A stretch of DNA of 5,378 bases from Candidatus Fermentibacterales bacterium (GCA_016928495.1 JAFGKQ010000080.1:1-5378); one strand, 5' to 3'; positions 461 through 5,378 are shown, counted from the first letter of the stretch. Numbers and translations are program-made. Notes: generated from the letters alone by a model not told the origin.

Positions 461-1025
461 CACCTACCTTCGCGAGATCAGCGATCTGGTCCTGAAGATC
501 CCGCCGGACGAGATCGGGAGGATCAGCGACCTGATACTCGGGGCCTACGAGACCGGAAGAAGGGTCTTCGTTTTCGGCAACGGCGGCGGCTCGGCCACCT
601 CGGCCCATTTCGTCTGTGATCTGGCCAAGGGAACGGCCAGACCGGGAAGGCCGAGGCTCAAGGCCATATCCCTCGTGGACAACATGCCGCTGCTGACCGC
701 GTGGGCAAACGACACCGACTACAGGAACACCTTCGGGGAGCAGCTCGTCAACCTCGTCGAGGAGGGCGACGTGGTCATAGGTCTCTCGGGAAGCGGCATG
801 AGCCCCAACGTGGTCAACGCCCTGAGAGTCGCCAACGATGCGGGAGCCGTCTCGGTCCTGCTCAGCGGCTTCGACGGAGGCGAGGCGGCTTCAGTGGCGA
901 GTATGTCTATAGTAGTGCCGTCCAGTGACATGCAGCAGATAGAGGACACTCATCTCATCCTGGCCCACATAATCTACCGGTGCGTGAGGGACCACATCGA
1001 CGGAAGGACCGGGTCCACGGGCTAG
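444..1025 (+). CDS. gmhA: D-sedoheptulose-7-phosphate isomerase (GmhA-like, SIS domain)
   Basis: It is expected to convert sedoheptulose 7-phosphate to D-glycero-D-manno-heptose 7-phosphate, the first step of ADP- or GDP-heptose synthesis for lipopolysaccharide or other surface glycans, in the cytoplasm. The 193 residues match the usual length of the family and form a single SIS domain. Visible signatures are VFVFGNGGGSATSAHF (residues 41-56), AISLVDNMPLLTAWANDTDY (74-93), GDVVIGLSGSGMSPNV (108-123, the phosphate loop) and VPSSDMQQIEDTHLILAH (158-175). H55, D59, E167 and H175 fall at positions that correspond, by my alignment from memory, to the zinc ligands His61, Glu65, Gln172 and His180 of E. 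coli GmhA. The Gln-to-Glu change is seen in GmhA-like proteins with the 'MQQIED' motif, common outside Proteobacteria. The Ser of canonical GNGGS is Gly49 here. The start at 444 is supported by a strong ribosome-binding site. The gene overlaps the nucleotidyltransferase by 17 bases, and its TAG stop overlaps the stop of the convergent gene. A different phosphosugar specificity is possible. Confidence 0.88.
   Translation: MLTRISTYLREISDLVLKIPPDEIGRISDLILGAYETGRRVFVFGNGGGSATSAHFVCDLAKGTARPGRPRLKAISLVDNMPLLTAWANDTDYRNTFGEQLVNLVEEGDVVIGLSGSGMSPNVVNALRVANDAGAVSVLLSGFDGGEAASVASMSIVVPSSDMQQIEDTHLILAHIIYRCVRDHIDGRTGSTG
1022..1025. other. Shared stop CTAG of two convergent genes
   Basis: The palindrome CTAG gives the TAG stop of the gmhA-like gene on the plus strand (1023-1025) and the TAG stop of the barrel gene on the minus strand (1022-1024). 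The two operons therefore meet tail to tail with a four-base overlap and no room for an intergenic terminator. Confidence 0.9.
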
Positions 1026-2746
1026 AAGTCCGCGTACACCCTGACGAATGCCGTCCGGTAGTGAGCGTCGTTCGCTTCGGTCTCCCCGTACTGGAAGACC
1101 TCTCTGAGCGCCATGTGCAGGAACATCTGCCTGCCGTACGCGGTGAAGGTATGATCCAGCTCGGCCTGCAGGGTGGCTCGGGAGAAGCCCTCGCCGCCCC
1201 CGCTCCTGTCCTGCTCCATGAGGTACTGGAAGCCCGCGGTTATCGTCGTTGACCTCGTGAACTCGTAGACCAGCTTGGCGAGAGCAAGCTCCTGGGTCGT
1301 GAAGACGTCCTCGCGCTCGCTGAAGAGGAAGCCGTGCCTGATCTTCAGCTTGGCCATCGGCACGAGCTGGAGGTCCCTTCGGAGTGGCATGCTCCTGCTC
1401 ATCCTGGCCACGCCCACCTGGTAGAGCCGCCTGGGGCCCTCGGGCAGCCGCCATGATGCATCCAGCCTGGCGCCGAGAGAGAGGAAGGTGTTGGTGATCG
1501 AAGTGACGTCCACCACTCCCGAGAGGCTCGAGTAGATGTCGTCCGGGAAGAGCGGCCGCTCCGGGATAGGTGCGCTGCCGGAGACCCGCACCAGGCTCTC
1601 GGAGATACCGTCCCTCACTCTCCTGACCTGGCCGTAGATGTCGAGCCTGCCGGACAGAAGCTGCTTCTCCCATCCGCCCGCGAGCTGGACCGCCCACTGG
1701 CTGCCCTCGCCGACTATCTCGCTGTCGGCCCAGGCGGAGATGCCGGCATAGCGGAGGTCCAGGATGTCTCCGCTCTCCCACTCGACGCTGGAGACCATGC
1801 CCTGGCGGTCGACCGGATACCGGTAGTCAGGCTCCAGATCGTTCTCCTCCCGATCCCTGATCCCGTTGTTGTTCCAGTCCTCGCCGCGCAGGAAGTCGTC
1901 GTCTACCTCCCACATGAGGAAATCGTCGTCGTAGTCGACTATCCCGTTGTTGTTGCGGTCCAGCAGAAGCGGGATCACGTCCTCGGCCCTCTCGTTCCAG
2001 TCCTCCGTGTGATCACCGTCGTCGTTATCCTGAACCGTAGCCCTGGCGTCGAAGCCGGGAGCGACTCTGAACGCCTCGGCTCTGACGAGGAAGGGCCCTG
2101 CCAGACGATAGCCTCCGAGGACCGCCGCCTCCTCCCTGTTGAGCCTGTCCCAGGCGCACTCCAGGTCGAAGCCCGTTGCGCTGAAGTCGCCCGAGACGTG
2201 AGCTCCGGTCACCCGGCTCTCGAAGCGCCGGCCGGGAAACGAGTCGGGCTCGACGATGGCGTCGGCCTCCGAGAGGGCGACGCTCCAGGTCCTGTCCTGC
2301 CACCTGAGCTCCCCGGCGAGACCGACGTGCTTCGACTCGACATCAGGCAGAAGCAGGAGGTCAGCCCGTACCTGGCCGCGCTCGACGGTCCACCTCATTC
2401 CGTTCAGCTCCTCCCTGCTGAGGACGAACGTGTTGTAGGTCGCTGGGACATCGCCCAGCCTGAGCATGCTCCTGGTCCGGCCTTCGGTCTCCTCGATCAC
2501 GAGGACTGCCCGGATCCCGTCCAGGAAGAGGTAGTCGAAATCGAACTCGTTGCGGTTGAGAAGTAGCTCACGCTTTCCGCTCAGGAAGTCGTAGCTGGAG
2601 AGGAACTCGTACTCGAGGTACCCGGTGATGTAGAGCTTGCCGAAGACGCTGTAGACATCCTCGACCTGCGCCTCCGCTCCTGCCGGGCAGATCAGGGCCA
2701 GCAGAAGGGAGAGCACACGCCTGAGGCCCGGGCCGGAGAGCCTCAT
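1022..2746 (-). CDS. Exported probable outer-membrane beta-barrel protein with EF-hand-like calcium loops
   Basis: I do not recognise a named family. The 574-residue product starts with a signal peptide: R2, R9 and R10, then a hydrophobic core at residues 11-20, then AEA|Q with likely cleavage after residue 26. Residues 28-235 and 315-574 are rich in short amphipathic segments with alternating polar and aromatic or aliphatic residues, separated by charged turns. The protein ends FVRVYADF; a terminal Phe with alternating hydrophobics (V568, V570, A572, F574) fits the outer-membrane beta-barrel assembly signal. Residues 240-307 form a very acidic insert (26 Asp/Glu in 68) with two near-perfect EF-hand loops, probably an extracellular or periplasmic loop that binds calcium. 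No catalytic motif is evident, so a porin, transporter or surface scaffold is the best inference. The ATG at 2746 overlaps the stop of the propeller gene (ATGA), with GGAG nine bases upstream as a modest ribosome-binding site. The outer-membrane location is inferred; the exported status is well supported. Confidence 0.78.
   Translation of the reverse strand: MRLSGPGLRRVLSLLLALICPAGAEAQVEDVYSVFGKLYITGYLEYEFLSSYDFLSGKRELLLNRNEFDFDYLFLDGIRAVLVIEETEGRTRSMLRLGDVPATYNTFVLSREELNGMRWTVERGQVRADLLLLPDVESKHVGLAGELRWQDRTWSVALSEADAIVEPDSFPGRRFESRVTGAHVSGDFSATGFDLECAWDRLNREEAAVLGGYRLAGPFLVRAEAFRVAPGFDARATVQDNDDGDHTEDWNERAEDVIPLLLDRNNNGIVDYDDDFLMWEVDDDFLRGEDWNNNGIRDREENDLEPDYRYPVDRQGMVSSVEWESGDILDLRYAGISAWADSEIVGEGSQWAVQLAGGWEKQLLSGRLDIYGQVRRVRDGISESLVRVSGSAPIPERPLFPDDIYSSLSGVVDVTSITNTFLSLGARLDASWRLPEGPRRLYQVGVARMSRSMPLRRDLQLVPMAKLKIRHGFLFSEREDVFTTQELALAKLVYEFTRSTTITAGFQYLMEQDRSGGGEGFSRATLQAELDHTFTAYGRQMFLHMALREVFQYGETEANDAHYRTAFVRVYADF
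1844..1960 (-). other. Two EF-hand-like calcium-binding loops in the barrel protein
   Basis: Loop 1 (residues 263-274, bases 1925-1960) reads DRNNNGIVDYDD, and loop 2 (residues 290-301, bases 1844-1879) reads DWNNNGIRDREE. Both match the twelve-residue DxNxNGxxDxx(D/E) pattern, with acid or amide at positions 1, 3, 5, 9 and 12, Gly at 6 and Ile at 7. They are 15 residues apart, separated by an acidic linker with several phenylalanines. A weaker acidic run, DNDDGD, lies just before them at residues 240-245. Dockerin- and EF-hand-type loops of this sort bind calcium; here binding is inferred. Confidence 0.7.
2669..2746 (-). other. Signal peptide of the barrel protein
   Basis: Residues 1-26 show a basic start (MRLSGPGLRR), a hydrophobic core VLSLLLALIC, a Pro-Ala-Gly turn and AEA before Gln27. 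This is a typical type I signal peptidase site. Cys20 is not in a lipobox, because Ile precedes it, so a lipoprotein is unlikely. Confidence 0.85.
2743..2746 (-). promoter_or_regulatory. ATGA stop-start overlap coupling propeller and barrel genes
   Basis: On the minus strand the bases ATGA hold both the ATG of the barrel gene and the TGA of the upstream propeller gene. This arrangement normally means translational coupling on one mRNA, and it supports both the start chosen for the barrel and the view that the two products are made together. Confidence 0.85.
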
Positions 2747-5378
2747 GGAGGACCGCTCCAGAGCTGCCAGCGGGCCGTCTCCGGGCTGTAGCTGAGCACT
2801 CCCATGCTTCCGGCCACCCAGATCCTCTCTCCATCGAAGGCAATGTCCTCCACGGGAACCGCGGTGGGGCTCCCGGGAGCCCGGAGCGGAGGAGGCTCGA
2901 TCCTGCTACCGTCGATGAACAGGCCGGAGGGGGAACCGGCGAAGACGTGGCCCCCGCGCAACAGGATGCAGGAGACACGACCCTCGACCCGCATCGTATC
3001 AGCCGAAGGGCCCGGTCCCCCGAGTATGACCCTGCCGTCGGCCAGGCCGACCACCCAGCCTGCATCCACGGCCTCGGCCGAGAGACAGGAGGCCAGGTAT
3101 CGCGGCAGCTCCAGGAGCGTGCTCCAGGTTCCAGCCCCCGCGTCGAACCTTTCGAGCGTCGTGGAGCTGAGGACCATCGCATCTCTCCCCAGGGACGCGA
3201 TGTCCAGCAGGTTCGAGTTGCGAAGATCGGCCGCCATGGCACTGGAGACGGCGCGCCTCGCTGCTCTCTGCCTGCCGGTGTGCCACGTCCACCCGGGGGT
3301 GCGGAACCGCTCCAGCTCGGCCGTCGCAGCACCGCCCGCCGTAGCGGCCCAGACATGGCCCTCTCGGGAGGAGATTGCCCTGACACTGCCCTCGGGAAGA
3401 CTCGTGCCGGAGCCATAGGAGAACCAGAAGTCTCCCGCCAGGTTCAGAGCAAAGACGGCCCCACGGACAAGGGAAACCCACAGATAGTCATCAGAGAAAC
3501 ACAGACCGCTGACTGCGGCACCCTCGCCCCAGGGCGCGCGGGTTCGCCACTCACCGGTCTCGAGGTCGAGCATCCTGACCTCGTCGGAGCTGGCCACAGC
3601 GACCATGCCGTCGGCAACGTCTATGGAGGAGAAAGTCCTGTCTTCCGCGGGACACGCGCAGACGGGGAGCTCCGTGACCCGGAACCAGGAGCCGTCCCCG
3701 GGACGGTAGAGCACGACTCCCGATCCGGTGCCGATCAGCGCCAGATCATCGGTCGAAGCAAGACTCAGCACATCGAGAGACGGCAACAGGGCCAGACCAG
3801 ACTCGGTGAAGCCGTAGCCCGCGGGAGAGCCGTCGGGCAGGAGCATGTCCAGGCCAACCCCATCGCTTGCCAGAAGCAGGATGGCCCCGCAGGAGGCGAT
3901 ATCATCGTAGAAACCGGTAGTGAGCCCATCGAAGGGCATGAAAGCCCTCCAGGAGCCCTCCGACGGGCTCCACCGGAAGGTGCCCCACCCGGTGAGCAGC
4001 CAGACGAATCCTCCGGCCTCCTCGACCCGACTGATGTAGGCGTCCTGCAGATCCGGCACGCCCGGACCTTCAGGAGAGCGCCAATAGCCATCGCTTCCGT
4101 CGCGGATGTCCAACCACCGCACCCCGCTGTCGCCAGAGCAGAGGACCAGGCTGTCACCCACAAGCCACAGCCTGTCCACATCCACACCCGCCCCCCTCAC
4201 GGGGACCATCTCTCCGGGGCCTCGCCAGACCCGGCCGTCGCTGTCAACGGCAAACAGAGACCCGTTTGCTGCGATAGCGTCGACTATCCGCCCGTCCTGC
4301 CGGATCAGGGCGACCGTGTCCGAAGCAACGGGCCTGACGGGTCCCGGCGCTTCCAGGACGGCGCCCCCGACGCAATAGAGCATCCTCTCCCCGTCCGAGA
4401 GGCAGAGGCAGCCGGGTGGCCCCTGGAACAGGCTCAGGGTGTACGAGCTGTCTATCAGGGCTATCCAGCCGGCATCCGAGGCGCAGACAAGGCTGCCGCC
4501 GATCACGTCCATGGACGAGGCTCGACCTGCCGCCGTCGGCGCGAGTCTCCCGTGATAGGCCCATTCCAGGTCGCTCGAGACGCTCCAGAGGTGGTTCCCC
4601 CGCTCCACGACCCAGATGCGGCCCCTCCACGGCTCGGACAACCCGGCCTCCCCCGTGACCAGCGCGAAACCGGTGGAACCCGACCGCCACCAGGGGAGCG
4701 TGGTCGCAGCGGGGCCGGACTCCATGCTCCAGGGATCGCGGTGGTCGGCTCCGGCACGCCATCGCGATCCGTCCATGCAGGTCGCGAGGAGAGCGGAGTC
4801 GTTCCATTCGAGTCCGATGACGGAATGAGGGCAAGGAGGTGGGAGATGCTCGATCAGCATCCCGTTCCGTAGAGAGATGGCGACTCCGGATGCGTCGAGC
4901 GCCACCGCGAGGGTGTCTCCCGACGAGGCCATGGCCGAGGTCCAGGGGGACGGAAGCTCCCGTGCGAGGCCGATCGCGGCTCCACCCGTTACGAGATCGT
5001 ACACGCCTCCTCCCCATCTCGAGACCAGAGTCCCCAGGGTGTCCGAAGCGGGACAACCCAGCCTGGCATCGGCCCCGGGCAGCTCGGCCCAGAGGTCCCG
5101 TGCGATGTCGTAGCTGTAGAGGCCGCCGGCAGCACCTGCCACAAGGAGGCGCCCATCCGATGACTCGATGAACGAGCAGGAGGTCGGCGACTCGCCACGC
5201 CCGTCGCCGACTATCTTCCAGGTGCCGGTGGACCTCAGGTAGCGGACCACCCCGCCCTCGGCGCACCCCGCCCACATGTAGCTGCCGTCATCGAGCAGAC
5301 ACAGAGCGCGGTCGGAGGGCAGGACGTCCAGCTCGGTGAAGTACTCCCAGGTTCCGATGTCCCTGTCGTAGCGGCAGA
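2743..5378 (-). CDS. Very long beta-propeller repeat protein (5' end outside window)
   Basis: I do not recognise a named protein. The visible 877 residues are almost wholly diverged repeats of about 40 residues. Each has a hydrophobic strand before a small-residue turn and then a Gly-rich strand pair, with a shape like 'RIWVAGSMGVLSYSPETARW'. Clear copies, counted from the Met at 5277, begin near residues 44 (LLVAGAAGGLYSYD), 376 (SLVLCSGDSGVRWLD), 424 (FVWLLTGWGTFRWS), 513 (ALIGTGSGVVLYRP), 598 (YLWVSLVRGAVFAL), 641 (HVWAATAGGA), 777 (HVFAGSPSGLFI) and 818 (RIWVAGSMGVLSYS). I count about twenty in all, enough for roughly three seven-bladed propellers. They resemble the two-component-regulator or PorZ type of propeller. 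The frame is open past the Met at 5277 to the window edge, and those extra residues (for example YDRDIGTWEYFTELDVLPSD) are again propeller sequence, so that Met is internal and the signal peptide, if any, is off-window. The protein ends right after its last blade, with no C-terminal sorting domain. It is coupled to the barrel gene. Likely a binding or scaffold protein; location and partner are unknown. Confidence 0.8.
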   Translation of the reverse strand, partial: CRYDRDIGTWEYFTELDVLPSDRALCLLDDGSYMWAGCAEGGVVRYLRSTGTWKIVGDGRGESPTSCSFIESSDGRLLVAGAAGGLYSYDIARDLWAELPGADARLGCPASDTLGTLVSRWGGGVYDLVTGGAAIGLARELPSPWTSAMASSGDTLAVALDASGVAISLRNGMLIEHLPPPCPHSVIGLEWNDSALLATCMDGSRWRAGADHRDPWSMESGPAATTLPWWRSGSTGFALVTGEAGLSEPWRGRIWVVERGNHLWSVSSDLEWAYHGRLAPTAAGRASSMDVIGGSLVCASDAGWIALIDSSYTLSLFQGPPGCLCLSDGERMLYCVGGAVLEAPGPVRPVASDTVALIRQDGRIVDAIAANGSLFAVDSDGRVWRGPGEMVPVRGAGVDVDRLWLVGDSLVLCSGDSGVRWLDIRDGSDGYWRSPEGPGVPDLQDAYISRVEEAGGFVWLLTGWGTFRWSPSEGSWRAFMPFDGLTTGFYDDIASCGAILLLASDGVGLDMLLPDGSPAGYGFTESGLALLPSLDVLSLASTDDLALIGTGSGVVLYRPGDGSWFRVTELPVCACPAEDRTFSSIDVADGMVAVASSDEVRMLDLETGEWRTRAPWGEGAAVSGLCFSDDYLWVSLVRGAVFALNLAGDFWFSYGSGTSLPEGSVRAISSREGHVWAATAGGAATAELERFRTPGWTWHTGRQRAARRAVSSAMAADLRNSNLLDIASLGRDAMVLSSTTLERFDAGAGTWSTLLELPRYLASCLSAEAVDAGWVVGLADGRVILGGPGPSADTMRVEGRVSCILLRGGHVFAGSPSGLFIDGSRIEPPPLRAPGSPTAVPVEDIAFDGERIWVAGSMGVLSYSPETARWQLWSGPP

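Follow-up and report, generated by a model that had tools for sequence, protein, structure and literature searches.

In Bacteroidota, PorP-like outer-membrane barrels hold cargo proteins with type B tails at the cell surface, and PorE, a protein that combines a TPR region with a propeller, binds PorP (PMC9143113). Both PorV and the PorP-like barrels are 14-stranded (PMC9143113). PorP/SprF, its type B cargo and PorE offer a working model of a barrel that holds the surface protein of a neighboring gene and is contacted by a propeller-bearing protein (PMC9143113). The type IX system has been called restricted to Bacteroidetes (PMC4793230, PMC7463736). Here, we compare with these systems a pair of adjacent genes that encode a large exported β-propeller and an outer-membrane β-barrel.

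The window, i.e., the whole 5,378-bp stretch of DNA that we analyzed, is an entire contig (C166) of a 2.3-Mb draft genome in 337 contigs. Its minus strand carries a complete 574-amino acid frame encoding the barrel (1022–2746) and the final 877 codons of a longer frame encoding the C-terminal part of the propeller (2743–5376), which is open at the right contig end. On the plus strand, the 3′ end of a sugar-nucleotidyltransferase-like gene with a hexapeptide C-terminus (2–460; assigned by Pfam and NCBIfam matches, with full-length relatives in L025 and L034) is followed by a gene for a GmhA-like SIS-domain isomerase (444–1025; Pfam and NCBIfam matches), whose stop codon overlaps that of the convergent barrel gene. 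An earlier note on this sequence had described a propeller of more than 877 residues whose stop overlaps the start of the barrel, with no gene between them. The open reading frames and the junction bear this out: at 2743–2746 on the minus strand the sequence reads ...GTCCTCC-ATGA-GG..., with the TGA of the propeller overlapping the ATG of the barrel, and our reading of the frames in the window places no gene between the two. Neither gene is an artifact, and each encodes an exported protein. The note had further taken the coupling to mark partners made in fixed ratio. However, the same 4-bp overlap occurs at 16 of 63 same-strand junctions sampled from 21 contigs of the source genome, in a crude count of open reading frames that asked for a start codon at exactly that position. 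With this base rate the overlap is ordinary in the genome and uninformative on partnership, and we rejected it as evidence.

The start of the propeller gene lies on another contig. Used as a query against its own genome, the propeller gave a second match on contig C163, at the left end of which a minus-strand frame opens with a signal peptide (MTSSPTGPRSGGPLGLARAGSSLLVLLLFLQLSAALRA) and shows four clear blades before it is cut off by the contig end. Farther into the contig are genes for a zinc-ribbon protein, an aminotransferase and RsmD. The GmhA and aminotransferase genes are convergent in all 33 relatives that have both on one contig, at a distance of 425–563 bp in 32 of these genomes, and the zinc-ribbon gene fills the gap in those that were read. 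In the source genome, the conserved GmhA flank lies on C166 and the zinc-ribbon/aminotransferase flank on C163, in matching orientations, and each contig breaks off within a propeller gene on the expected strand. The blade register of the broken ends is complementary, C163 ending in ...DGLRSGDVRDIVLR and the window beginning with CRYDRDIGTWEYF, with at least ~12 residues missing. Since a search for a sequence overlap between the two ends found none, the adjacency of C166 and C163 is not read directly, yet we infer it strongly from synteny and blade register. Joined in this way, the propeller would comprise at least ~1,100 residues and, given the signal peptide on C163, be Sec-exported, as the exported propeller of the earlier description requires. 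The junction between the GmhA and zinc-ribbon genes, located at 1025 in the window and at 651 in L012, also carries inserts in other genomes: two near-identical VCBS-type proteins with a MerR-like gene and a small downstream frame in G011 (L021, 2789–7400), one VCBS-type protein in G021 (L031, 3855–5810), and possibly another insert in G018 (L023, from 5869).

The propeller is a Reg_prop-type multi-propeller protein of at least ~1,100 amino acids that carries a signal peptide but no C-terminal sorting domain. Reg_prop scores above the Pfam cut-off of 20.4 bits in both halves (24.0 bits in the window part, 31.4 bits in the other). On its own, the C163 part reaches 8.8e-17 against 4a2l, which is the periplasmic sensor propeller of BT4663, and a profile built from the propeller and ten relatives reaches 4e-76 against the same entry. 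That profile matches both BT4663- and BT4673-type sensors and, far more weakly, PorZ (E 3.5e-11). The structural model, with a pLDDT of 53, contains confident four-stranded blades only at residues ~448–680 and is weakly trustworthy at both ends, which makes it too poor a basis for counting propellers. The best fold matches of this partial model are again the BT4663 and BT4673 sensors, followed by the triple-propeller protein DDB1. Blade sequence and fold thus liken the protein to the propellers of Bacteroides hybrid two-component sensors, although it is longer, is exported on its own, and has no recognized Y_Y_Y, transmembrane or kinase part. The end of the protein lies within the window and is formed by a blade (...LSYSPETARWQLWSGPP), and a Pfam search at E values up to 1 found no C-terminal sorting domain (CTD, CHU_C or FlgD-like). 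The absence of a PorZ-like C-terminal domain had been pointed out before, together with a loose analogy to PorZ; the profile match lends this analogy some substance, but the Bacteroides sensor propellers match far better, and in contrast to PorZ the window propeller has no sorting domain and no PorU or anionic-LPS context was seen. Relatives of the propeller, in the order and in a broad sample of genomes, are partial matches only, mostly 22–40% identical. The source genome encodes a second exported propeller of 777 amino acids (L013, G000:C270, 707–3040), which ends in an apparent FlgD/CHU-type tail and in this differs from that of the window. Giant propellers also occur in genome G357 (L213 and L223; open frames of 1,346 and 1,405 amino acids), at least one of them with a lipoprotein-like start.

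The second gene encodes a signal-peptide-bearing outer-membrane barrel. Residues 1–26 (2669–2746) form the signal peptide, which by inspection ends in AEA before Q, with a helix at residues 6–19 in the model. AlphaFold2, supplied with 88 sequences, predicted ~25 strands with a pLDDT of 83 and a pTM of 0.81, and Foldseek and VIA returned outer-membrane barrels in general, so that the barrel with an acidic loop proposed from the sequence stands. Similarity to MtrB, LptD, FimD, SlpA and other large barrels (Z about 12–14, 5–10% identity) reflects generic outer-membrane fold likeness, and we rejected kinship with MtrB, LptD or FimD on this ground. A relationship to SprA was likewise rejected after hmmsearch and hhalign: the SprA model TIGR04189 gave no NCBIfam match to the barrel, and profile-profile comparison, which had been proposed as a check, returned a probability of 8%. 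SprA does appear in the VIA alignment list at Z 11.7, among many barrels between which this score does not discriminate. TonB-dependent receptor models (plug domain and TonB_dep_Rec) gave no Pfam match at E values up to 1, and neither did the PorP_SprF or PorV Pfam models, whose barrels have 14 strands rather than ~25.

Between two barrel strands, the model and the family alignment place an acidic loop at residues 237–316 (1799–2038), in which 27 of 80 residues are D or E and 7 are K or R. It contains three EF-hand-like motifs (D240NDDGD, D263RNNNGIVD and D290WNNNGIRDREEND) and the pattern VDDNDD...DxNxNGxxDxxE[ND]DxxPDYxY...G that is conserved among relatives. The D, N and E positions of the loop are near-invariant across 88 family members, which is partly a product of the pattern used to find them. 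Counting strands back from the C-terminus of the model, on which the surface topology rests, this loop and the other longest loops probably lie on the outer face.

When the barrel served as the sole query, neither 60 genomes nor a contig scan yielded a relative at usual cut-offs, and searches against Pfam and NCBIfam gave no match. Its family was opened instead with a degenerate DNA pattern of the loop scanned over 84,980 species genomes, which yielded at least 119 stretches in Latescibacterota, Handelsmanbacteria, Gemmatimonadota, Poribacteria, Ignavibacteria and Bacteroidota. The proteins bearing the pattern have ~770–1,100 residues and can be aligned with the window barrel over the loop and the C-terminal region. 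The family profile scores 102.6 bits against the whole barrel. Because the loop could mislead such a comparison, it was masked, which left 29.7 bits, compared with −2.0 bits for the best of 200 shuffles and 2.6 bits for the best unrelated outer-membrane protein tried. Outside the loop, identity to any relative is below 20%. The window barrel has no counterpart to profile positions ~190–455 and lacks most of what separates the first strands from the loop, a region that is usually long in the family although its length is not a defining feature; one interval measures 75 residues against a family median of 181.5. Among the matches listed it is the shortest complete member of the family. Together, these sequence comparisons assign the barrel to an unnamed family found in Latescibacterota, Gemmatimonadota, Ignavibacteria, Bacteroidota and Poribacteria, within which it is shortened and highly divergent. 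It shares with the other members (loci L036–L115 and L170–L181) the acidic loop module and the order of barrel segments up to the C-terminus but has 574 residues instead of ~770–1,100, and the gene upstream of it encodes a tailless propeller. Neither Pfam nor NCBIfam has a model for the family, and no solved relative was found by sequence. The view that neither protein of the pair belongs to a named family thus holds for the barrel but fails for the propeller, in which Reg_prop exceeds its cut-off. Literature searches by phylum and T9SS terms returned no paper describing this barrel family, and a search combining one candidate lineage name with propellers returned nothing. Acidic-loop barrels often occur in tandem copies (e.g., L042, L045, L050, L061, L085, L113 and L180) and often lie downstream of F5/8-type or CHU_C/FlgD-tailed surface proteins. 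They are also present in G357, on contigs other than those of its giant propellers.

We then asked whether the two genes stay together in other genomes. Of the 42 genomes in the order, the source genome alone has the barrel, and 9 of 385 genomes in a broad sample have the family. No propeller was detected by phmmer near the family loci found with the pattern, and none was recognized by eye beside further family loci. The two genes are therefore not conserved together, which the earlier note had named as a ground for refuting its proposal; the two other grounds it gave, a propeller without an export signal and a failed barrel prediction, do not apply. Their pairing is a single-genome observation, better described as a plausible local partnership than as a proven new system. 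A gene pair of the type "surface protein, then barrel" does recur in the family, because CHU_C domains occur in 26 of 39 upstream neighbors and in 7 of 37 downstream neighbors (Fisher p 3e-5, a value that overstates independence as the loci are related to one another). FlgD_ig is found in 24 of the 39 upstream neighbors. TPR proteins are frequent downstream, and PorV/PorP/FadL-like barrels, TPR proteins and ExbB/ExbD also lie near family barrels. The CHU_C/FlgD tail, a frequent but not defining feature of the upstream neighbor in the family, is absent from the window.

Most likely, by analogy, the barrel would anchor or receive a surface partner encoded just upstream, since the family pattern of an exported β-rich protein followed by a barrel resembles that of type B cargo and PorP-like barrels. 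For the reading in which the barrel acts as anchor or receptor and the propeller as its local partner, we estimate a probability of roughly 45%. The two genes would then form a lineage-specific cassette of exported envelope proteins that closes a housekeeping operon (RsmD, aminotransferase and zinc-ribbon genes). The barrel, presumably inserted by the BAM machinery via its C-terminus (...YADF), would expose the predicted calcium-binding acidic loop at the cell surface and serve as outer-membrane anchor or receptor for the β-rich protein encoded directly upstream. Here, that partner would be the propeller, which might dock on the periplasmic face, as has been suggested for PorE on PorP, or at the surface loop. 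In comparison with the 14-stranded, FadL-family PorP-like barrels, the window barrel is far larger and unrelated in sequence. Lacking a sorting tail, the propeller is not the usual kind of partner, and with less than 20% identity outside the loop the function of the barrel may have changed.

The occurrence of the pair in one genome only, with the barrel in 1/42 genomes of the order and its family in 9/385 of the broad sample, speaks against this reading and favors a rival one, in which the two exported proteins are unrelated to each other and are cotranscribed only because their genes share an insertion-prone junction. The barrel would then act on its own as a porin or transporter, and the propeller would be an independent binding protein in the periplasm or at the surface. 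We consider such mere neighborhood nearly as likely as a partnership: phmmer detected no propeller beside the relatives of the barrel, one quarter of same-strand junctions have the same overlap, and the junction holds other cargo in G011, G021 and possibly G018. Yet both are envelope proteins, and family barrels elsewhere also follow genes for large exported β-rich proteins.

That the pair belongs to a type IX secretion-related unit, in which the barrel, like PorV or PorP, would serve as collector or anchor and the propeller, like PorZ, as accessory, appears improbable. In its favor, SprA (TIGR04189) is above cut-off in 40 of 42 genomes of the order including the source genome (416.6 bits), family barrels often neighbor CHU_C-tailed proteins and PorV/PorP/FadL-like barrels, and the profile of related propellers matches PorZ. 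However, the barrel has ~25 predicted strands against 14 in PorV/PorP-like barrels (PMC9143113) and no profile link to SprA, and SprA-bearing relatives do without the pair. Because cargo and PorZ are defined by a C-terminal domain that is missing from the propeller, the classical type IX route is not supported, even though the lineage owns the SprA translocon. The earlier idea that the propeller is exported through the barrel, or plugs it, draws on the presence of a large barrel and has adjacency as its one piece of evidence; Pfam and NCBIfam revealed no plug domain or translocation partner, we know of no solved barrel that passes a folded propeller, and we regard this as highly improbable.

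Extending the anchor reading beyond the window, acidic-loop barrels might constitute a separate class of surface anchors in several phyla, parallel to PorP/SprF and each holding the β-rich protein encoded upstream. In this lineage, the barrel would have lost part of its length and gained a giant sensor-type propeller in place of its former partner, resulting in a surface or periplasmic complex for sensing or binding. We put this forward as a speculative and rather unlikely extension. The window in any case leads to a large unnamed barrel family in several little-studied phyla, often multicopy and frequently preceded directly by a gene for a tailed surface protein. Should the barrels anchor the products of these neighboring genes, they would represent a general mode of holding proteins at the surface outside the Bacteroidota model organisms, and the window barrel, as the shortest complete member among the matches listed, would be a convenient minimal version for study.

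The order of the source genome seems to lie outside Bacteroidota, and SprA-type proteins of ~1,870 amino acids are nearly universal in it (G000:C152, L238; elsewhere, e.g., L235, L236, L237 and L241). A further conserved protein of ~1,038–1,066 amino acids, with a terminal phenylalanine like that of an outer-membrane barrel, is encoded in L232, L233, L234, L239 and L240. It has a short stretch in common with the SprA model at positions ~600–650, and in three of these five loci its gene lies directly upstream of one for a protein that looks like a POTRA/BamA-type barrel.
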